Program-made: the position numbers and the translations under genes | The notes under the pieces: generated by a model | Database searches by the model: none | Told to the model about the DNA's origin: nothing | The model's input: only the letters and a program-made list of their open reading frames with translations | Shown here: positions 15,889 to 27,837 of the stretch, one piece after another | Layout: each line of letters starts with the position of its first letter | Position numbering within the stretch: position 1 is the stretch's first letter | NCBI GenBank assembly: GCA_903840935.1 | Contig: CAIMHT010000098.1 | Location: forward strand, 1-34,909 | Direction: 5' to 3' | From: an uncultured Chlorobiaceae bacterium | Lineage (GTDB): Bacteria; Bacteroidota; Chlorobiia; Chlorobiales; Chlorobiaceae | DNA length: 34,909 nucleotides

Positions 15889-17580
15889 GTGAACACCTTT
15901 CTTCTTGAGTACAAACAGATCCAGACACCAAAAAAAGGATTATCAAAGCTTTTTCGTGACTATACATCAGAGGGCTCCGAGCGCTCGGATTTGCTCTCTG
16001 AGTGTTTCCACCTTGATTACCAGAGAGAGGCGGATTACTATCGACAGCTCGGATTACTTGGCTCGAGAACTTTCGATCGTGAGACACTTGTGCAGCTCCT
16101 TTCGAAACAAAATACCCGCTACGGAGCCACAGAACTTCACCTCCGGGAGATTAAAAAACTCCGTTCCCCGCGATGTATGGCCATCGTTACCGGACAGCAA
16201 CTCGGCCTCTTTACCGGTCCAATCTATACCATCTACAAAGCTTTGACTGCCATTATTTTTGCAGAACGGCAGAAAGCACTCTTTCCTGAATACGATTTTG
16301 TGCCAATATTCTGGCTTGAAGGTGAAGACCATGACTTTGAAGAATCGGCCCACACAGCAATTTTTTCTGAAAACCAGGTTGTTCACTTCCGGCAGGAGCC
16401 GTACCGACGCGTGGCGGAGCAGATGGTTGCCAATAGTTGCTTCGGCGAAGAGATTCATGATACCGTCGAGGAATTTCTCCGACTCCTGCCTGATTCCATC
16501 CACAAAGAGAGCGTCTCAAATATTCTCAGGGAACAATATTATCAAGGAAATACCTTCGAGATGAGTTTTGCCGGCACCATGATGCGACTCTTCCGGGAAC
16601 AGCCGCTGATTCTGCTCTCAAGCCAGGATACCGAGTTCAAAAAGCTTTCATCCAAAATTTTTTTAAAAGAGCTCTTATCCGCGCCCACCTCCTCCTATAA
16701 TGTAATTGCACAAAGTTCACGCCTCGAACAACTCGGCTACAATGCACAAACAAAACCAAGATCAGTCAATCTGTTTCATATCAACCATCTTGGCCAGCGG
16801 CAAAAAATCGAACATCCAACAGAGAACTCTTTCTCAATTTTACCCGAAAAACAGGGCTATTCAAAACACCAACTGCTTGAACTCTGTCAGGAGCACCCTG
16901 AACAGTTCAGTCCCAACGTTGTCCTTCGGCCAATTATCCAGGATTACGTCCTGCCGACCTTTGCCTGCATTGCCGGACCTGGAGAGATCAGCTACCTTGC
17001 ACAGTACCGGAAAAATTACGAACACTTTGGCATCACCATGCCGTTTATCATTCCCAGAGGGAGCTTTACACTTGTTGAACCGAAAATAAGCCGCATCATG
17101 GACAAGCTGCTCCAGGTAATCGGAAAACCAGGGGTTTCGCGCAAACAAATATACAATGCCGTATTCAGTGACCTGCAGCAACTAAAAAAAAATGCGGTTG
17201 GCATCGCTGAAAATCCTCAACTTGAGGCTCTGTTTGAAGACGCGAAGATAGAGATCCGCCGGGTTTTTGCATCTCTTGAGCCGGTACTTGCCAAGATAGA
17301 CACCACCCTTGAACCAATGCTGGCTGCATCGACAGCCCAATCGGCAAAAATTATCGACAATATTGAACAGAAAACATGGAAAGCAAGCCGACGCAAACAT
17401 GAAGAACTTCTTGAGCAGATCCTGAAATCAGAAACCGCATTTTTTCCGGAAGGATTGCCCCAGGAACGACTCATCAACATTTTTTATTATCTCAACAAAT
17501 ACGGCATGGAACTGATCGATACCCTGAAAAATCTGCTGAGCGGGCATGCAACTGAAGCACATATCATTGTGGAACTGTAA
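15889..17580 (+). CDS. bshC: Putative cysteine ligase BshC (bacillithiol synthesis)
   Basis: BshC adds cysteine to glucosaminyl-malate, the last step of bacillithiol formation. The protein is recognisable by [18 protein letters not shown], the stretch [12 protein letters not shown], and a C-terminal coiled-coil region rich in Lys and Glu. Length is 563 residues from the GTG at 15889, slightly above the Bacillus protein. A TTG at 15859 in the same frame lies inside surE and is less likely. Green sulfur bacteria are known to use N-methyl-bacillithiol, which fits. No bshA, bshB or methyltransferase gene is seen nearby. The gene meets the small HTH gene tail to tail with 12 bp between and no evident terminator. 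Confidence 0.92.
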
Positions 17581-17592
17581 GAGTCACAGGCC

Positions 17593-17910
17593 TTATTTGC
17601 CGCACGTATTCTCCCCCTCTTCCTTTTGCAGCAGATGACAGCAGTTGCAGACAAGACTCTGAAGCTCTTCTTGCGATGCCTCTTCACAGATTTTTTTTAC
17701 CGCCATCTCAATCTCCTTGCGATAACTTTTGCTCTTGAGTGATTGCATGCCCCGCTTTTTATGAATATACTGCGAGATTGCAGCGGGCGTGACACCAAGT
17801 TTCTTTGCCGCCTGCGATTGGGTTATGCCAGTTTTAACAAGCTCAATGGCAAGATCTGCCCTGATTTGAGGAAGATAGTACCAGACAGCTTTTTCACAGG
17901 GAAATGCCAC
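17593..17910 (-). CDS. Small cysteine-rich helix-turn-helix transcriptional regulator
   Basis: This 105-residue protein has a Cro/XRE-like helix-turn-helix at about residues 28-53 (TQSQAAKKLGVTPAAISQYI), followed by KKRG. The preceding pattern, PCEKAVWYYLPQIRADLAIE, resembles a family of predicted regulators best known from archaea (COG2522-like). It contains six cysteines: C5, C75, C88, C90, C91 and C103. The clustered CNCC near the C-terminus and the isolated ones could hold a metal or Fe-S cluster, which would make it a redox or metal sensor; that is inference. The start is GTG, with no good ribosome binding site. It follows the LOG-family gene by 42 bp on the same strand, so it probably ends the transcript coming from the GlmU-like gene. 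Confidence 0.75.
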   Translation of the reverse strand: MAFPCEKAVWYYLPQIRADLAIELVKTGITQSQAAKKLGVTPAAISQYIHKKRGMQSLKSKSYRKEIEMAVKKICEEASQEELQSLVCNCCHLLQKEEGENTCGK

Positions 17911-17952
17911 GATAAAATACTTTTAAATTAACAGGTAAAGAGCAATCCCCCA

Positions 17953-18690
17953 TTAAAAATTCAGGGAATAACCGTCAGGATAAAATCGTTTAATAATTTC
18001 GATAACCTCTTCCAGACTATCTTCCAGGTAAATGAATTCAAGATCGTCAGCATGAATATAGCCCTTGTCCCGGCACATCGTCTCTTCTATCCAGCGATAC
18101 AATCCACCCCAATAACTTTTTCCAACCAATATAACAGGAAAACGCTCACTTTTCCCCGTCTGTATCAATGTAACTGCTTCCATTACTTCATCAAGCGTGC
18201 CAAACCCGCCCGGCAAGGCAATAAATGCCTGTGCGTATTTCATGAACATCACCTTGCGCACAAAGAAATACTGAAAACTGATCAATTTATTATGATCAAT
18301 ATATTTATTGGGCTCCTGCTGGTTTGGAAGCTTGATATTGAAACCTATTGAAGCCCCTCCCGCACCCTGCGCCCCCTTGTTTGTCGCCGCCATGACACCC
18401 GGTCCCCCTCCGGTGATCACCGAAAAGCCTTCAGCAGCAAGCAGACGACCAAGCTTCTCCGCGAGAAAATATTCAGGGCTATCAGCCTGAACCCTTGTAG
18501 AACCAAACACAGCAACCGCAGGATCTGCATCAGACATCATCTCAAAACCACTGACAAACTCCGCCATGATCTTGAAAACCCGCCACCCGTCAGCCATGAA
18601 ATCAGTTTCCCTGCCTGAACCGACACGCTGCACCGCGCCCTTTCCTGCGCTCTCTTTATCTCTTTCCGGTGAACGTCGATAAATGTCCAT
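17953..18690 (-). CDS. LOG-family protein (TIGR00730, Rossmann-fold nucleotide hydrolase type)
   Basis: The family includes cytokinin-activating LOG phosphoribohydrolases and bacterial nucleotide 5'-monophosphate nucleosidases, which cut the N-glycosidic bond of nucleotides. The hallmark PGGxGTxxE is present as LPGGFGTLDEVMEA, and the nucleotide site appears as VITGGGPGVMAATNKGA. Length is 245 residues from the ATG at 18690; the N-terminal 50 residues are basic, poorly conserved and longer than in minimal members. GAGG lies about 10 bases upstream. Whether it acts on cytokinin-like nucleotides or on AMP/GMP cannot be read from the sequence. It starts 25 bp after the trpG stop. Confidence 0.88.
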   Translation of the reverse strand: MDIYRRSPERDKESAGKGAVQRVGSGRETDFMADGWRVFKIMAEFVSGFEMMSDADPAVAVFGSTRVQADSPEYFLAEKLGRLLAAEGFSVITGGGPGVMAATNKGAQGAGGASIGFNIKLPNQQEPNKYIDHNKLISFQYFFVRKVMFMKYAQAFIALPGGFGTLDEVMEAVTLIQTGKSERFPVILVGKSYWGGLYRWIEETMCRDKGYIHADDLEFIYLEDSLEEVIEIIKRFYPDGYSLNF

Positions 18691-18715
18691 ACACTCACAT
18701 CCTCTCAATCATATA

Positions 18716-19279
18716 CTACAGTTCAAGAAAATTTCTGATAATTTTTTTACCCTCACTGGTCATGATAGATTCTGGATGAAACTGGACACCATAGAGCAGA
18801 AGCTGCTCCGAATCCATCCCCATGATTACCCCATCCTCAGTCCACGCACGGATGACAAGAGCCTCTGGAAGCGTCTGGCGCTCCACAATGAGTGAATGAT
18901 ACCTCGTTGCCACAAACGGATTGTCAACACCGGCGAAAATCCCCCGGTTATCATGGTAAACCTGCGAGGTCTTGCCATGCATAATCGTGGCAGCACGCAC
19001 CACATTGCCACCCAAAGCAGCACCGATCGACTGATGCCCCAGGCAAACCCCGAGGAGAGGGATTTTACCCTTCACAGCATGAATCAGTGGCACCGACACT
19101 CCAGCGTCAGTTGGAGTGCCTGGACCTGGCGAAATAACAATCTTTTCAGGGGCAAGCGCAACTATCTCCTCTACAGAAAGCTCGTCATTGCGGTACACCT
19201 CAACTCTCTCCCCCGACTCTCCAATATACTGTACCAGGTTATACGTGAAAGAGTCGTAATTATCGACAACAAGAATCAT
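18716..19279 (-). CDS. trpG: Anthranilate synthase glutamine amidotransferase subunit
   Basis: TrpG hydrolyses glutamine and passes ammonia to TrpE for anthranilate formation, the first step to tryptophan. In many bacteria the same protein also serves PabB in folate synthesis. The class I amidotransferase triad is C79 in LLGVCLGHQSIG, H168 and E170 in YGVQFHPESI. The oxyanion stretch ISPGPGTPTDAG is clear. At 187 residues it is a stand-alone glutaminase of normal size. The gene is not next to trpE or other trp genes here, so PabA function is an equally open assignment. It lies 34 bp after the GlmU-like gene. Confidence 0.92.
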   Translation of the reverse strand: MILVVDNYDSFTYNLVQYIGESGERVEVYRNDELSVEEIVALAPEKIVISPGPGTPTDAGVSVPLIHAVKGKIPLLGVCLGHQSIGAALGGNVVRAATIMHGKTSQVYHDNRGIFAGVDNPFVATRYHSLIVERQTLPEALVIRAWTEDGVIMGMDSEQLLLYGVQFHPESIMTSEGKKIIRNFLEL

Positions 19280-19313
19280 GCCTACCCATGCTTAAAAATT
19301 AGACAAATAACCG

Positions 19314-20549
19314 CTATGCGCTCTCCATGCCGGCAACAAAACGGAACATCAATTCGTAGCTGCTGCTCATCACAACCTGACGACGCTCCATAACCCTTCG
19401 CGCTGTTTCAACAGCCTTTTCAACCTGATATGGTTCAAAACCATCACTACCTCCCCAAGAAAAAGAGGGTACCTCTTTTGGAGGAAATCCACCACCAAAA
19501 ATGTTCGCTCCGGTTCCAACAACAGTTCCGGTATTGAACATCGAATTGATTGAGCACTTGCTGTGATCACCCATCAGCAGACCGAGAAACTGCAGGCCGG
19601 TACTCTGCAATCGGCCATTGTGCAATAATTTGATCCGGCTGTAGTTATTCTTGAGATCACTCGTGTTGGTGCCCGCGCCAAGATTACACCATGATGAAAT
19701 ATAAGAGTGGCCAAGAAAACCGTCATGCTGCTTGTTGACAAATGGCTCAATCAGGGAATCCTCGACTTCACCCCCAACTCTCGACGCAGTCCCCACAGCA
19801 ACATTGCTATAAAGTTTTGCACCGATTTTTACCCTCGACCATGGAGCAAGATAAACATTCTGCATCAGCACAGCCTGCGGGTCAACAATCGCACCAGCCC
19901 CGACTGCCACAAAACCATCGTCCGCATCAAGCACCGCGCCAGCCCGAACAACAGCTCCAGGAGCAACATAAATATTTGAACGATTGACCATCGCCGCCGA
20001 AGGGTGAACATCTCCTTCAAAACGCCCAAGCTCAAGCGTTTCAGCATCCAGCAAAAGCTCATCGGAATGAAACGCGATCATATCCCAAAGATGCGTGATA
20101 ACGCGAAACCCAGTAACCACCTCAGTAACAAGTTCTCCGGCAAGTGCTGATGTATCAATAAGGTCTGGCAACAGACCTTCACCATCAGTGATCAGGGCAC
20201 CCGGTACTCTTGCAAAGAGCAGGTCCTCGCCCTGCATGTAAGCCGTTCCAGGTTCAAATTCGCCCTTGATAACCGCTCTTGAGGCTGCCTCATCAAAAAC
20301 TATACGACCGTTAACCAGCAAAACATCCTTCTCTTCAAGCTGGTTGACCACACTTTCGGGATGCTGTTCAGCATAAAAAGGGGCAAGATAACGGCGAAGA
20401 TGCCACGTAAGCACCACATCTCCCCTGGTTGAAAACTCAAGCTTTTCCTGAAGGGAGCGAAATCCGGTACGAAGCGCATACACCGGCTTAAGGTTAACAA
20501 GAGGCTTCAACTCCAGAACCCTGGTATCTTCAAAAACAATTACCTGCAT
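19314..20549 (-). CDS. GlmU-like sugar-phosphate nucleotidyltransferase / acetyltransferase
   Basis: This 411-residue protein resembles the Bacteroidetes/Chlorobi family annotated as alternative GlmU (TIGR03991). Its presumed role is making UDP-N-acetylglucosamine for peptidoglycan and lipopolysaccharide. The N-terminal half (1 to about 185) starts MQVIVFEDTRVLELKPL and lacks the standard nucleotidyltransferase loop LAAGxGTRM of true GlmU. The C-terminal half (about 188-330) is a left-handed beta-helix with hexapeptide repeats such as IYVAPGAVVRAGAVL and the acyltransferase-like HSYISSWCNLGAGTNTSDLK. The ATG at 20549 is the obvious start. It is first in the minus-strand run leading to trpG. 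The activities are inferred from family naming, not shown by the sequence. Confidence 0.85.
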   Translation of the reverse strand: MQVIVFEDTRVLELKPLVNLKPVYALRTGFRSLQEKLEFSTRGDVVLTWHLRRYLAPFYAEQHPESVVNQLEEKDVLLVNGRIVFDEAASRAVIKGEFEPGTAYMQGEDLLFARVPGALITDGEGLLPDLIDTSALAGELVTEVVTGFRVITHLWDMIAFHSDELLLDAETLELGRFEGDVHPSAAMVNRSNIYVAPGAVVRAGAVLDADDGFVAVGAGAIVDPQAVLMQNVYLAPWSRVKIGAKLYSNVAVGTASRVGGEVEDSLIEPFVNKQHDGFLGHSYISSWCNLGAGTNTSDLKNNYSRIKLLHNGRLQSTGLQFLGLLMGDHSKCSINSMFNTGTVVGTGANIFGGGFPPKEVPSFSWGGSDGFEPYQVEKAVETARRVMERRQVVMSSSYELMFRFVAGMESA

Positions 20550-20808
20550 TTTATAAGTTACGTATTTTACTGTTTACTACTTTTCATCAAAAATCGCTGT
20601 GTCTTTATATTTTAAAACAACTTTTCCAACTTGTTCATTACTGTACCTTTCTTTTTCGCCCTAAAAGTTACGTCAAGTCCTGCAACTTATTTGCACAGAG
20701 GGAACACAAATGAAACAGATATAAACGTAAGCATAGACGTAAAGACTCGAGAAAGAACAGTGGCTGATGGCAATATCAATTTCCTCATTGACGTTTATCA
20801 TAAAGATT

Positions 20809-21145
20809 ATGGCAGTTTCCTTCAATCCACAGAAAAAAAGCAAATCCAAATACGTAAACTCCTATAATCAGTCTAAAACTGAAGTTCTGGTCAAGATACA
20901 AATAATAGAAAAAGATTTACAGTTTGATGCTGCGGCCATTTTCAACCGAAAAACAAAGTCGCCTGAAGACTTTGTGGACCATGTCTTGGGCCATCTGGCC
21001 GCGTCGCTGAAGCTCTTCAGGCGAGTGAGTTAAGGCATTAAAGACGAAAGCACTGGAGGAAGGAATTACCTATCAAACACTCGTTACCAGTATTCTCCAT
21101 AAATATGTTAGTGGTAAACTGACGAAGTCAAGTAACAGAAATTAA
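20809..21145 (+). pseudogene. Disrupted CopG-type (ribbon-helix-helix) antitoxin gene
   Basis: Two pieces in different frames together look like one antitoxin of the CopG_antitoxin type. The first (to about 20922) ends KTEVLVKIQIIEKDLQ. The second (21035-21145) reads ALKTKALEEGITYQTLVTSI and ends HKYVSGKLTKSSNRN plus stop. In intact family members these blocks are adjacent, as in DL-x-ALK-x-KA-x-EEG-x-YQTL. Here about 112 bp separate them, shift the frame and bring in a stop at 21031-21033. The N-terminal part is also poor. No toxin gene is recognisable on either side. The 259 bp between this and the GlmU-like gene start hold no gene I can support. Confidence 0.6.
20923..21034. repeat. Palindromic insert within the antitoxin gene
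   Basis: The segment separating the two antitoxin pieces contains a perfect 10-bp inverted repeat, CGCCTGAAGA at 20960-20969 and TCTTCAGGCG at 21014-21023, around a 44-base loop that is GC-richer than the flanks. The exact insertion ends are uncertain by a few bases, and no convincing target duplication is seen (at most 2 bp). It could be a small REP-like or MITE-like element. Whether copies occur elsewhere in the genome cannot be seen from one window. Confidence 0.4.
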
Positions 21146-22700: not shown

Positions 22701-23486
22701 ATGATGAAAAGTATACCATACCAAAAATTTTCTCCAGGAACAGCCCCAAATGCTTCAGGTTTGCAGATTTGCCGGTTTGATGATTTGGCCGAAGAAAAAC
22801 AACTTGTCTCGTGTCTGATGGTCACTCGTGGAAATATGGAGCTGATCAGACAATCTTACCGTTCATATAAATCACAATCATGGAAACATCGTGAACTTGT
22901 TATTGTATCCGAAAATGTCAGCGATGAACTCAGGTGCCTCGCTGATGATGACTGTGGAGAGATAAGGCTTGTCGAAGTCCCAAAAGGGTCATTCACTCTT
23001 GGAGATCTTCGAAATCTTTCTGTAGCAAGATCACGTGGTGACTTCATCTGTCAATGGGATGATGATGATCTTTACGACCCGGACAGAATCTCTATTTCCA
23101 TGAAAGTGCTCATCGAATCCTCAGTTGAGGCCGTCTTTCTATACAGATTATTACTCTGGTGGGAGAGTAGAGGTCGTTTATCTATTTCCTCTTCAAGAGT
23201 TTGGGAGGGAAGTATATTCGCTCGCAGATCAGCAATTTCTATATACCCGTCATTTGCAAAAGGTGAAGACAGTATAGTGACCGAAAGGATTATCAGAAAT
23301 AATCCTGTATCGCTGATAAATTATCCTCAATTATATTGTTATAGAGTTACCGGAAAAAATACATGTGATGTCAATCACTTTGAAAACTGGTTCAACCATT
23401 CTTCCAAAGTATTCAAAGAAGAAGAGTTCGAAGCAGTTTTCAAACTACCTTGTTTTCGTTTTGCGAATAATGAATTAATAGGGTAA
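22701..23486 (+). CDS. Family 2 glycosyltransferase (GT-A fold), copy 1
   Basis: This predicted glycosyltransferase of 261 residues probably transfers a sugar from a nucleotide-sugar to a surface glycan or a protein. The GT-A beginning is LVSCLMVTRGNMELIRQS (about residues 35-52). The metal-binding acidic motif is FICQWDDDDLYDP with D120-D123, and a later conserved block AKGEDSIVTE would hold the acidic catalytic region. No membrane segment is seen, so it should act in the cytoplasm or loosely at the membrane. Two ATG codons in a row open the gene; the ribosome binding site is weak. A second copy follows after 14 bp. Donor and acceptor cannot be told. Confidence 0.82.
   Translation: MMKSIPYQKFSPGTAPNASGLQICRFDDLAEEKQLVSCLMVTRGNMELIRQSYRSYKSQSWKHRELVIVSENVSDELRCLADDDCGEIRLVEVPKGSFTLGDLRNLSVARSRGDFICQWDDDDLYDPDRISISMKVLIESSVEAVFLYRLLLWWESRGRLSISSSRVWEGSIFARRSAISIYPSFAKGEDSIVTERIIRNNPVSLINYPQLYCYRVTGKNTCDVNHFENWFNHSSKVFKEEEFEAVFKLPCFRFANNELIG
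22991..23140 (+). repeat. Near-identical patch shared with the second glycosyltransferase (unit 1)
   Basis: These 150 bases match 23860-24009 with five differences by direct comparison, including one unbroken run of 56 identical bases across the DDDD motif. The genes on either side of the patch are clearly more divergent, so the patch looks homogenised. Confidence 0.8.
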
Positions 23487-23500
23487 ATGACATAAAGGTC

Positions 23501-24388
23501 GTGCTTGATTTGATTTTTTTTGATCCGCTTATCTACTGCGCACTTATAATAATACCCTTTTTTTTCGTTATCGTGCAATATATTCCATTCAGGAAATTTT
23601 CGGCAGGAACAGGCATAAGCGCTTCATATAAAAATATTTGTAGGTTTGAAGAGTCGTTAAGTGAACATCAACTGGTTTCATGTGTCATGGTCACACGTGG
23701 GGACATGGACTTGATCTATGCCTCTTATAGCTCATTTAAATCACAATCATGGAAGAATTGCGAACTTGTGATTGTTTGTGATAATGTTGGCGATGAACTC
23801 AGGAGCCTCGCTGACGAGGACTGTGGAAAGATAAGGCTTGTCGAAGTCCAAAATGGAGCATTCACTCTTGGAGATCTTCGAAATCTTTCTGTAGCAAGAG
23901 CACGTGGAGAATTCATTTGTCAATGGGATGATGATGATCTTTACGACCCGGACAGAATCTCTATTTCCATGAAGGTGCTCATCGAATCCTCAGTTGAGGC
24001 CGTCTTTCTCTGCAGATGGTTAATGTGGTGGGAGAAAAGAGGACTGCTATCAATTTCTCCTTCAAGAATTTGGGAAGGAAGCTTGTTTGCTCGTAAATCC
24101 GCAATTTCAATATACCCGTCAATTGCAAAAGGTGAAGACAGTGTGGTGACAGATTGGATTACGAAATATTACTCTATTTCACTGATAGATTATCCTCAAC
24201 TTTATTGTTACAGAGTTACTGGCCAAAATACATGGACAATTAATCACTTTGAACAATTGTTTGGAAATTCTTCAAAAGCATTCAAAGCAGATGAGTTTAT
24301 CACTGTTTTTAAATTACCATGTTTTCAATTTGCTTATCTCGACAAAACAGGGAAACAGATGAGCGTTCCGGTCACGTACAGCAGGTAG
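23501..24388 (+). CDS. Family 2 glycosyltransferase (GT-A fold), copy 2
   Basis: This paralogue of the preceding gene has the same blocks: LVSCVMVTRGDMDLI, QWDDDDLYDPDRISIS with D143-D146, and AKGEDSVVTD. It is read from GTG at 23501, giving 295 residues with a hydrophobic N-terminus (LDLIFFDPLIYCALIIIPFFFVIV) that copy 1 lacks and that could anchor it in the membrane. A GTG at 23573 gives the start that aligns with copy 1 (VQYIPFRKFS) and would remove the anchor; AAGG stands just 3 bases before the first GTG. Both are possible. The C-terminus is 12 or so residues longer than copy 1 (ending PVTYSR), and the stop lies beside a recombinase remnant. Confidence 0.8.
   Translation: MLDLIFFDPLIYCALIIIPFFFVIVQYIPFRKFSAGTGISASYKNICRFEESLSEHQLVSCVMVTRGDMDLIYASYSSFKSQSWKNCELVIVCDNVGDELRSLADEDCGKIRLVEVQNGAFTLGDLRNLSVARARGEFICQWDDDDLYDPDRISISMKVLIESSVEAVFLCRWLMWWEKRGLLSISPSRIWEGSLFARKSAISIYPSIAKGEDSVVTDWITKYYSISLIDYPQLYCYRVTGQNTWTINHFEQLFGNSSKAFKADEFITVFKLPCFQFAYLDKTGKQMSVPVTYSR
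23860..24009 (+). repeat. Near-identical patch shared with the first glycosyltransferase (unit 2)
   Basis: This is the second unit of the 150-base patch, offset by 869 bases from the first. It starts ATTCACTCTTGGAGATCTTC in both copies. Differences are concentrated at five positions around 23900-23917 and at 23974. Confidence 0.8.
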
Positions 24389-24495
24389 GCCTGAGGAATG
24401 CTGCTTGCGGGTTCGCCTTGGCAAATCAAGGAGCAGACACACGGCTCATTCAGGACTATCCTGGAAACCGGAACATCGCGCGCGGAGAAATTCGG
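24376..24495 (+). pseudogene. Tyrosine recombinase (phage-integrase family) C-terminal remnant
   Basis: One frame reads VGLRNAACGFALANQGADTR followed by LIQDYPGNRNIARGEIR. This closely matches the catalytic end of FimB/XerD-like recombinases, which is usually of the type LRHACGFALA-x-QG-x-DTRLIQDYLGHRNIQHTVRYT. The catalytic His after the Arg has become Asn, the His of the GHRN motif is Asn, and the sequence departs before the active-site Tyr. No start or N-terminal half is present. It is therefore dead, and marks an old integration or recombination event between the glycosyltransferase pair and the regulator gene. Confidence 0.75.
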
Positions 24496-24641
24496 ATTGG
24501 TCAAAAATTCATGAAAACGAATATATTGTGATAATTTTAAATGGATGCAAGTGTCCGTTCAAGTGTGGCTGTGAACAATACCTTGACGAACTTGAACCCA
24601 TAATAATTTCTACTATCCATTCAGGAAAAGAGCCAGGCAGA

Positions 24642-25880
24642 ATGATACGTCAAAACTCAACTTTGACAGGCACCCTTGACACGCTATCAAAAAGCCACTG
24701 GAAAACCCAGCACCCTGCTGCAGGGTATACCAAGTGGATGAGTGTGATTGATGAAAATATCGTCCACACCTGGGTTGAGGTTGACGCGGGACAGAGTGTT
24801 GTTCTTGACGTTATGGACAGCGAACTATTGCAGCTTGTGCTCACAGAATCCGCTCTCCTGAACCAGCAGTTTCACATCCTGTTCGATCTGGCCCACATCT
24901 CCAGCATTAGCTTCGACTACAAACAGGCTATTGCGGATCTCTTTTATAACTGGAGCCCGATTCTCGGGGTCGTAGGTTTTTACAATATTGCAGACTCCAT
25001 GCGCATAATTGTAGAAACTTTTGCAGCGATCGCTCCTGAGACAATTTGCGTCCTACTGACCGAAACCTATGAAGAGGCCATTGAAAATACCATTGCATTC
25101 AAGGCAGGAAAACTTTCACAAATGGAATCATGCTATGTGAACCACGACACAGACCACGCACTAAAAAAACGGTTTCTGGAGGTCGTGGCAAGGATATCCT
25201 GGCTTGATATGCTTGACGAGCAAATAACGACGCCACCGCCTGGCCACCACTATTATCTATTTTTCAAGGCAATAGACTTTTTGCGCACTGACCTTATAGC
25301 AAGAGAAGCAAAAAAAGAGAGCGAACTGCAACAGCTTAAACAGGACTTTGAATATCGAATAACCCAGATGGTTATAAAAATAAATGCACAAACGGAGGCA
25401 AACAAAAAGTACAGTCGCGACATGGGAAACGAAATAGCCGCTCTTACAAGAAAAATTGAGAGTCAGGATATAGAACTGACAAAACTTACGACGGTCATTA
25501 ATAACAATAAAAAGAGGTTGCGTGATCTTCTTGACAAGATAGGCGCACTTGAAATTGATCCAGTTGTTAAAAACGACATCACCAATTCCTGCCTGAACCT
25601 TATTGATAAAGGGTCTATCGAAAAACAACTGGATATCGAACTGACGAAGTCCGATTCACTTTTTTTATCCACACTGGAAAAAAAATGCCCCTTCCTCAGC
25701 CCTCGCGAACTGAAAATCAGCCTGCTTGTCAAGTTAAACTACGACACCTCAGAGATTGCCCATTCCATCGGTCTCTCGACCAGAGGCATGGAAAGCATCC
25801 GCTACAGAATGCATAAAAAGCTTGGCCTTGGAAAACACCAGTCAATCAAGAGCTTTCTTTCAGAACTCGTGATTTCATGA
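24642..25880 (+). CDS. LuxR-type regulator with STAS-like N-terminal domain and coiled coil
   Basis: From the ATG at 24642 the protein has 412 residues. About 33-157 form an alpha/beta region resembling SpoIIAA/STAS-type domains (VVLDVMDSELLQLVL, FHILFDLAHISSISF, then GVVGFYNIADSMRIIV). About 219-296 is a coiled coil with many Lys, Glu and Ile heptads. The end (about 352-396) is a LuxR/GerE-like helix-turn-helix of the kind found in Bacteroidetes regulators: LSPRELKISLLVKLNYDTSE and STRGMESIRYRMHKKLGL. It likely senses a signal through the STAS-like part and binds DNA as a dimer. AGG lies a few bases before the ATG. The frame stays open upstream and encodes a cysteine cluster, so a start at GTG 24528 is possible. 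It ends 5 bp from the kinase gene on the other strand. Confidence 0.75.
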   Translation: MIRQNSTLTGTLDTLSKSHWKTQHPAAGYTKWMSVIDENIVHTWVEVDAGQSVVLDVMDSELLQLVLTESALLNQQFHILFDLAHISSISFDYKQAIADLFYNWSPILGVVGFYNIADSMRIIVETFAAIAPETICVLLTETYEEAIENTIAFKAGKLSQMESCYVNHDTDHALKKRFLEVVARISWLDMLDEQITTPPPGHHYYLFFKAIDFLRTDLIAREAKKESELQQLKQDFEYRITQMVIKINAQTEANKKYSRDMGNEIAALTRKIESQDIELTKLTTVINNNKKRLRDLLDKIGALEIDPVVKNDITNSCLNLIDKGSIEKQLDIELTKSDSLFLSTLEKKCPFLSPRELKISLLVKLNYDTSEIAHSIGLSTRGMESIRYRMHKKLGLGKHQSIKSFLSELVIS

Positions 25881-27207: not shown

Positions 27208-27837
27208 GTGAACTGGGAGGAACCCTCATGTTGTATACGGCAAATCCTTCAAGCTGTTTCGAGAATCTGCCGTTTCAGAGACGTTGAACAGCGTAAAGAT
27301 GTTACCATAAAACTGAATAACCCGGATGATAAAATGAACGCACACGTAGAAGAAACCAACAAAAGCAGTGTTGATTACGAAAAAGAGATTGCTGTTCTTC
27401 GTAACAGAATTGCGAATCAGGATTTGGAACTGACAAGAGTTTCTACAGCAATTGCTGAAAAAACAAATTCATTGCGCAATCTTCTTGACCAGATACATGC
27501 CCTTGAAATCGATACCACTGTAAAAAGATCGATGACTGATTCCTGTTTGAGCCTTATTGAGACCGAGACTATTGAAAAACGTCTGAACATAGAGCTCACT
27601 GAGTCTGACTCTGTCTTTTTGTCGAAACTGCAGAAAAAACATGCCAACCTCAACCAGCGTGAGCTGAGAATAAGCCTTCTTGTAAAACTGAACTACGACA
27701 CCAGAGAGATTGGCCGCTCGGTTGGCATCTCAACAAGAGGAATGGAAAGCATCCGCTACAGAATGCACAAAAAACTCGGACTTGGAAAACACCAGTCAAT
27801 CAAGACCTATCTTTCAGATCTTGCTGTTGCTTTATAA
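27208..27837 (+). CDS. Short LuxR-type regulator, paralogue without the sensor domain
   Basis: This 209-residue protein matches the last 160 or so residues of the 412-residue regulator. It has the same coiled coil (about 55-105, EKEIAVLRNRIANQDLELTR), the same linker (LEIDTTVK and IEKRLNIELTESDSVFL) and an almost identical helix-turn-helix (about 148-192, ending STRGMESIRYRMHKKLGL and GKHQSIK). The STAS-like domain is absent and replaced by about 45 unrelated residues including a CC pair. The strong ribosome binding site and the good terminator behind it suggest a working gene, not a leftover. It may form mixed dimers with the larger paralogue or act without a signal; this is inference. Confidence 0.72.
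   Translation: MNWEEPSCCIRQILQAVSRICRFRDVEQRKDVTIKLNNPDDKMNAHVEETNKSSVDYEKEIAVLRNRIANQDLELTRVSTAIAEKTNSLRNLLDQIHALEIDTTVKRSMTDSCLSLIETETIEKRLNIELTESDSVFLSKLQKKHANLNQRELRISLLVKLNYDTREIGRSVGISTRGMESIRYRMHKKLGLGKHQSIKTYLSDLAVAL

Follow-up and report, generated by a model that had tools for sequence, protein, structure and literature searches.

A four-cysteine helix-turn-helix protein of Chlorobiaceae as a possible regulator of cytochrome c maturation

The DNA analysed here, a 34,909-nucleotide stretch from an uncultured Chlorobiaceae bacterium (hereafter the window), encodes on its minus strand, at positions 17593..17910, a 105-amino-acid helix-turn-helix (HTH) regulator with a cysteine cluster, named REG in this work. 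Among Chlorobiaceae, REG is part of the core gene set, as a transcription regulator normally present in a single copy per genome. Four unchanged cysteines and, in many relatives, a place beside the genes for heme attachment to cytochromes point to a probable metal- or thiol-based sensor of this pathway. The preferred reading, held tentatively and somewhat short of an even chance, is that of a probably dimeric HTH regulator with a four-cysteine Fe-S or metal site, adjusting cytochrome c maturation. The openly licensed literature searched yielded nothing on the REG protein itself, nor did it show any protein that regulates how cytochromes mature in green sulfur bacteria.

The open reading frame is intact on the minus strand, running from a GTG start at 17910 to a stop codon that ends at 17593, and the plus strand read in the same register is interrupted by an internal stop. 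Homologues with 62-97% identity are present in dozens of genomes. Seven dN/dS comparisons were set up, three of which were duplicates without a row of their own; in the four comparisons obtained (0.015/0.569, 0.031/0.164, 0.071/0.552 and 0.096/0.617) dN was always lower than dS, from which it follows that purifying selection acts on REG as a gene. Its translation starts with GTG in the window's group and with ATG in the Chlorobaculum-type group. Upstream of 17910 and in the relatives a Shine-Dalgarno sequence was not evident, and the motif TTATC recurs directly 5' of the REG start.

The XRE-type DNA-binding fold proposed in the original prediction is supported by the Pfam model HTH_3, which matched residues 26-52 with 26.8 bits (cut-off 23); nothing more specific was matched in Pfam, and no NCBIfam model reached its cut-off. 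The HTH proper occupies residues 31-52 (17755..17820, minus strand), corresponding to helices 31-38 and 42-52 of the predicted model (m6947e345b267; mean pLDDT 76.8, pTM 0.64), whose last predicted helix spans residues 80-102. A Foldseek search with this model returned no PDB match at E <= 0.001, and the best VIA-align match, the DeoR DNA-binding domain (Z 5.4, 55 residues aligned, rmsd 4.7), is uninformative. Sequence searches of the PDB reached a best E of 0.045 for the REG sequence alone and of 0.016 for its profile, reflecting the HTH region or chance.

The distribution of REG was followed with a profile of 49 rows in 394 sampled genomes of the window's phylum, the genome searches being confined to this phylum. 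Homologues were detected in 84 genomes (the window's own counted), all matches falling in Chlorobiaceae: 84/86 sampled family genomes carried the gene, comprising 63/65 of the window's genus and 21/21 of a second genus, and the two family members lacking it are draft genomes with an estimated completeness of 94 and 86%. A second match, partial in one case (79 bits) and weak in two (30 and 24 bits), was present in three of the 84. The same profile found REG in 0/308 sampled phylum genomes outside Chlorobiaceae, a figure that rests on the genomes without a match, ordered by kinship, with two family members among those listed; none of the 12 sampled genomes from the order's other families, all listed without a match, contained it. 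On this sampling, REG belongs to the core genes of a single family and is not a general anaerobe marker in the phylum. The suggestion that the protein is anaerobe-associated therefore found no support as a general rule within the phylum, where REG was detected in the window's family alone.

The connection with cytochrome c maturation comes from the genes around REG in the relatives. The gene resB (ccsB) belongs to System II cytochrome c maturation, and the resB-ccsA pair is referred to below as ccsBA. Among 52 loci with downstream sequence, 23 have resB directly 3' of REG on the same strand, on the side taken by bshC in the window; ccsA follows resB in 19 of these 23 linked loci, the sequence of the remaining four stopping before that point. 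In two loci read closely, the gap between REG and resB was 10 bp (L060) and 6 bp (L078), and resB extended 4 bp into ccsA. Pfam models matched by the REG neighbours were ResB, Cytochrom_C_asm and Haem_bd. This gene order makes resB-ccsA a candidate target of REG, for which the original prediction had named none. Against the main reading, REG and ccsBA lie apart in 29/52 loci; in the window genome ccsBA is found on another contig (G000:C24:12570-14554, locus L149). In a tree of 51 distinct regulators (midpoint root, support 70/75), the REG-resB linkage occurs in both main clades and needs one change, a pattern that fits an ancestral REG-resB-ccsA order which would later have been broken in the window's group.

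Of 24 genomes outside the family, none had this ResB type and, in the same search set, none had REG, but CcsA-like matches appeared in two of the 24, so that the co-occurrence is imperfect. Within the family, G005 lacks REG while G025 and G033 lack ccsBA, all of them drafts with a completeness of 80-94%. On the other side of REG, a divergent gene for a haem-binding protein (Haem_bd) is directly upstream in 47/53 loci. The loci without an adjoining Haem_bd (L031-L033, L035, L036 and L038) all come from close kin of the window organism; since L034 and L037, also close kin, retain it, Haem_bd was probably lost more than once. The single Haem_bd match of the window genome sits elsewhere (C47). Because REG is retained where Haem_bd is gone, neither neighbour can be the sole reason for its presence, and its persistence where both Haem_bd and ccsBA are gone also counts against the main reading.

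The gene order in the window is different, with glmU-like, trpG and LOG genes followed by REG, which faces bshC. The LOG-type gene (TIGR00730; 17953..18708, minus strand) is the upstream neighbour of REG across a gap of 42 bp (17911..17952, minus strand), and bshC (TIGR03998; 15859..17580, plus strand) is convergent with REG at a distance of 12 bp. The trpG/LOG run, given in the original prediction as the context of the gene, turned out to be a secondary neighbourhood: LOG had no match in 16/53 loci (e.g., L033, L036, L043, L048, L073 and L081, with L042 among the 16 being too short to tell), and the older order is probably Haem_bd / REG / resB-ccsA. A trpG/LOG operon as the functional unit was rejected on the same LOG count, together with the opposite-strand gene directly 5' of REG in 47 of the 53 loci. 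LOG near REG seems to have been often lost or moved in Chlorobiaceae. A bacillithiol link via bshC is likewise unsupported, with resB instead of bshC behind REG in 23/52 loci. Elsewhere in the window, two adjoining glycosyltransferase-like ORFs, named by eye (22701-23486 and 23501-24388), look like a tandem duplication, and the ORFs at 24405-25880 and 27208-27837 resemble each other in an HTH-like region at the C-terminus (RGMESIRYRMHKKLGLGKHQSIK), which gives one the look of a shortened copy of the other.

A dyad search was run on 58 REG upstream regions (70 bp) and 28 ccsB upstream regions (110 bp), both with near-copies removed. No motif common to the two sets stood out beyond the shuffles: the top dyad common to both had a product of 0.017, compared with a mean of 0.012 and a maximum of 0.026 in 30 shuffles, a weak control, as single bases were shuffled in the ccsB set alone. 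The 28 regions include one linked, not relocated, ccsB (L150). The search also found no enriched palindrome 5' of REG. Many ccsB upstream regions have a conserved stretch ahead of the start codon, and a stretch like CAGGTAGTCATTATGG is seen directly 5' of the relocated resB in several genomes (L149 of the window genome and others). The promoter scan gave two sites, both on the other strand, against 1.9 in shuffles; terminator-like sites numbered two against 0.9 in shuffles, both within LOG, and nothing in Rfam matched at 17000-21000.

The lack of a shared operator motif in the dyad search, and the retention of REG where ccsBA is non-adjacent and Haem_bd has disappeared, would agree with REG being a sensor for some other pathway. 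Its mechanism might then overlap with those of the other readings, the link with ccsBA would be incidental, and the regulon could include, for example, genes of iron metabolism, sulfide oxidation or photosynthesis. That REG, resB and ccsA are closely packed in this order in two distinct clades speaks against this possibility, which is rather doubtful albeit worth keeping in view.

The six cysteines in 105 residues counted in the original prediction were found at positions 5, 75, 88, 90, 91 and 103. The 23 other window ORFs taken as proteins contain 101 cysteines in 9543 residues (1.06%), and against this background the binomial probability of at least six cysteines in 105 residues is about 9e-4; the enrichment is noteworthy yet falls short of being decisive, the case having been chosen for its richness in cysteine. 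Conservation is the stronger evidence. C5, C88, C90 and C91 are cysteine in 58/58 aligned distinct proteins (window included) and in 61/61 distinct full-length proteins after the addition of three rows missed by a motif filter; the count of 61 was itself filtered for the motif FPCE, and the truncated homologue L083 was omitted from this set. With no motif filter applied, C5 is cysteine in 111/111 loci, and C88, C90 and C91 in 110/110 covering loci, counted over loci with fetched sequence, many of which are duplicates, with L083 truncated. Both TGT and TGC are in use at each of the four positions, showing that the residue is conserved and not the DNA.

The four invariant residues fall into two places. 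The codon of C5 (17896..17898, minus strand) belongs to the FPCE motif and, in the predicted model, C5 is directly ahead of helix 1; the codons of C88-x-C90-C91 (17638..17649, minus strand) lie in the last predicted helix. They form a set that a metal or Fe-S cluster site could use. The remaining two cysteines behave differently: Cys75 (codon 17686..17688, minus strand) is optional, being cysteine in 42/58 aligned proteins, and the tail cysteine, Cys103 in the window (codon 17602..17604, minus strand), has a counterpart past the CC pair in 52/58 proteins, its place shifting across homologues. The alignment check on conservation thus upheld four of the six cysteines, but not C75 or the drifting last one. 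Similarly, the CNCC noted near the end of the protein stands as regards its invariant cysteines, while the motif is really CxCC, position 89 being N, K, R, D or S. Position 92 is His in 30/58 proteins, Gln in 22, Arg in 5 and Ser in 1. With N89 and H92 both variable, a c-type heme attachment motif CXXCH (CNCCH in the window) is excluded for REG.

The invariant CxxC spacing of C88 and C91 would also be compatible with a thiol redox switch operating without any cofactor, in which a disulfide, persulfide or polysulfide formed there by sulfur species changes DNA binding in a SurR-like way; a sulfide oxidizer would in this case be responding to elemental sulfur or polysulfide. According to the accessible part of a review (PMC7278568), the CXXC of SurR is such a redox switch and governs DNA binding on elemental sulfur, which counts for this possibility, and SurR is treated as well in the accessible part of PMC6316755. 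The bacillithiol gene bshC, adjoining REG in the window, is another point in its favor, offset by the 23 of 52 loci in which resB takes that place. Moreover, C5 and C90 are also invariant, pointing beyond a switch of two cysteines. The cofactor-free mechanism is rather unlikely, though still a serious rival.

Four invariant cysteines suit a tetrahedral zinc site too, and such a site could be purely structural, anchoring the C-terminal helix against helix 1 without sensing anything, with regulation exerted by another ligand or constitutive. The CxxH...CxxC motif of haloarchaeal ThiR proteins (4/4 proteins aligned) may have a structural function of this kind. However, the 105 residues of REG leave no other ligand-binding domain, so that a zinc-only regulator would have no obvious input, and a purely structural role is rather improbable, though likewise a serious rival. 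A phage or defence origin was rejected, as the PHROGs and PADLOC matches are to generic HTH alone, tblastn with the single REG query found no relative in viral contigs, the REG profile matched there twice, over short HTH stretches (query residues 18-60 and 19-49), in ORFs without the cysteine tail, and phage records matched weakly, with a best E of 0.1.

In the preferred reading, a regulator adjusting cytochrome c maturation through its four-cysteine site, the ThiR-like HTH of REG would bind DNA, probably as a dimer as judged from the fold class. C5 and the CxCC motif would hold an Fe-S cluster or another metal, as the cysteine conservation suggests, and gain, loss or redox change at this site may alter the DNA binding. 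Going by gene order, the original task of REG was likely to adjust resB-ccsA, and with it the divergent haem-binding protein. Control could extend, from a putative operator, to ccsBA where the genes lie apart, as in the window genome. It has a low probability, in contrast, that all parts hold together in one lineage-specific regulator, with an HTH as in the archaeal thiamine regulators, which senses the Fe-S, redox or sulfur state by way of the four-cysteine site and couples that state to cytochrome c maturation. If true, there would be a direct regulatory link between the iron-sulfur economy and the photosynthetic electron carriers of green sulfur bacteria. REG would then also represent a compact sensor type, with a cysteine cluster in place of the ThiN domain of related archaeal regulators. 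It is a concrete protein with a candidate target operon, whose four cysteines are invariant and whose neighbourhood is probably ancestral.

Several known regulators can be set beside REG. The predicted archaeal regulators of COG2522 are short HTH proteins with a PCE motif at the start and a cysteine motif at the end, and REG presumably resembles them; the term COG2522 was absent from the openly licensed literature searched. The nearest relatives reached outside the family are plasmid-borne haloarchaeal HTH-ThiN proteins (tblastn E 4e-6 to 6e-5), of which two adjoin thiamine genes and one adjoins phosphonate transport genes, the fourth record being unannotated. The accessible part of PMC12029414 describes ThiR as a regulator of thiamine biosynthesis. 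Residues 2-80 of REG match four haloarchaeal ThiR proteins, including the N-terminal PxE segment and the HTH, with an hhalign probability of 97.8%, and this homology of the HTH bears out the resemblance to archaeal regulators that had been noticed from the sequence. In both groups, a cysteine-containing motif comes after the HTH, but in the haloarchaeal proteins it is CxxH...CxxC, located between the HTH and ThiN (4/4 aligned), while REG has C5 and CxCC. Position 5, cysteine in REG, is occupied by Ser in three of the four archaeal proteins and by Ala in the remaining one. ThiN is present in all three haloarchaeal proteins scanned and missing from REG, where it had no match at E <= 1; the window genome, an incomplete draft, gave none either. 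By these comparisons, REG is ThiR-like in its HTH, yet not a ThiR.

Regulators of the NsrR/IscR type are HTH proteins with a cysteine-ligated Fe-S cluster. No such family was among the sequence-family matches of REG, and NsrR was a weak helical match to the predicted model (Z 4.2, 70 residues aligned, rmsd 3.6). SurR of Thermococcales, as described in the accessible part of PMC7278568, is, like REG, a DNA-binding regulator with a CxxC from a sulfur-using anaerobe. REG differs from SurR in having two further invariant cysteines.
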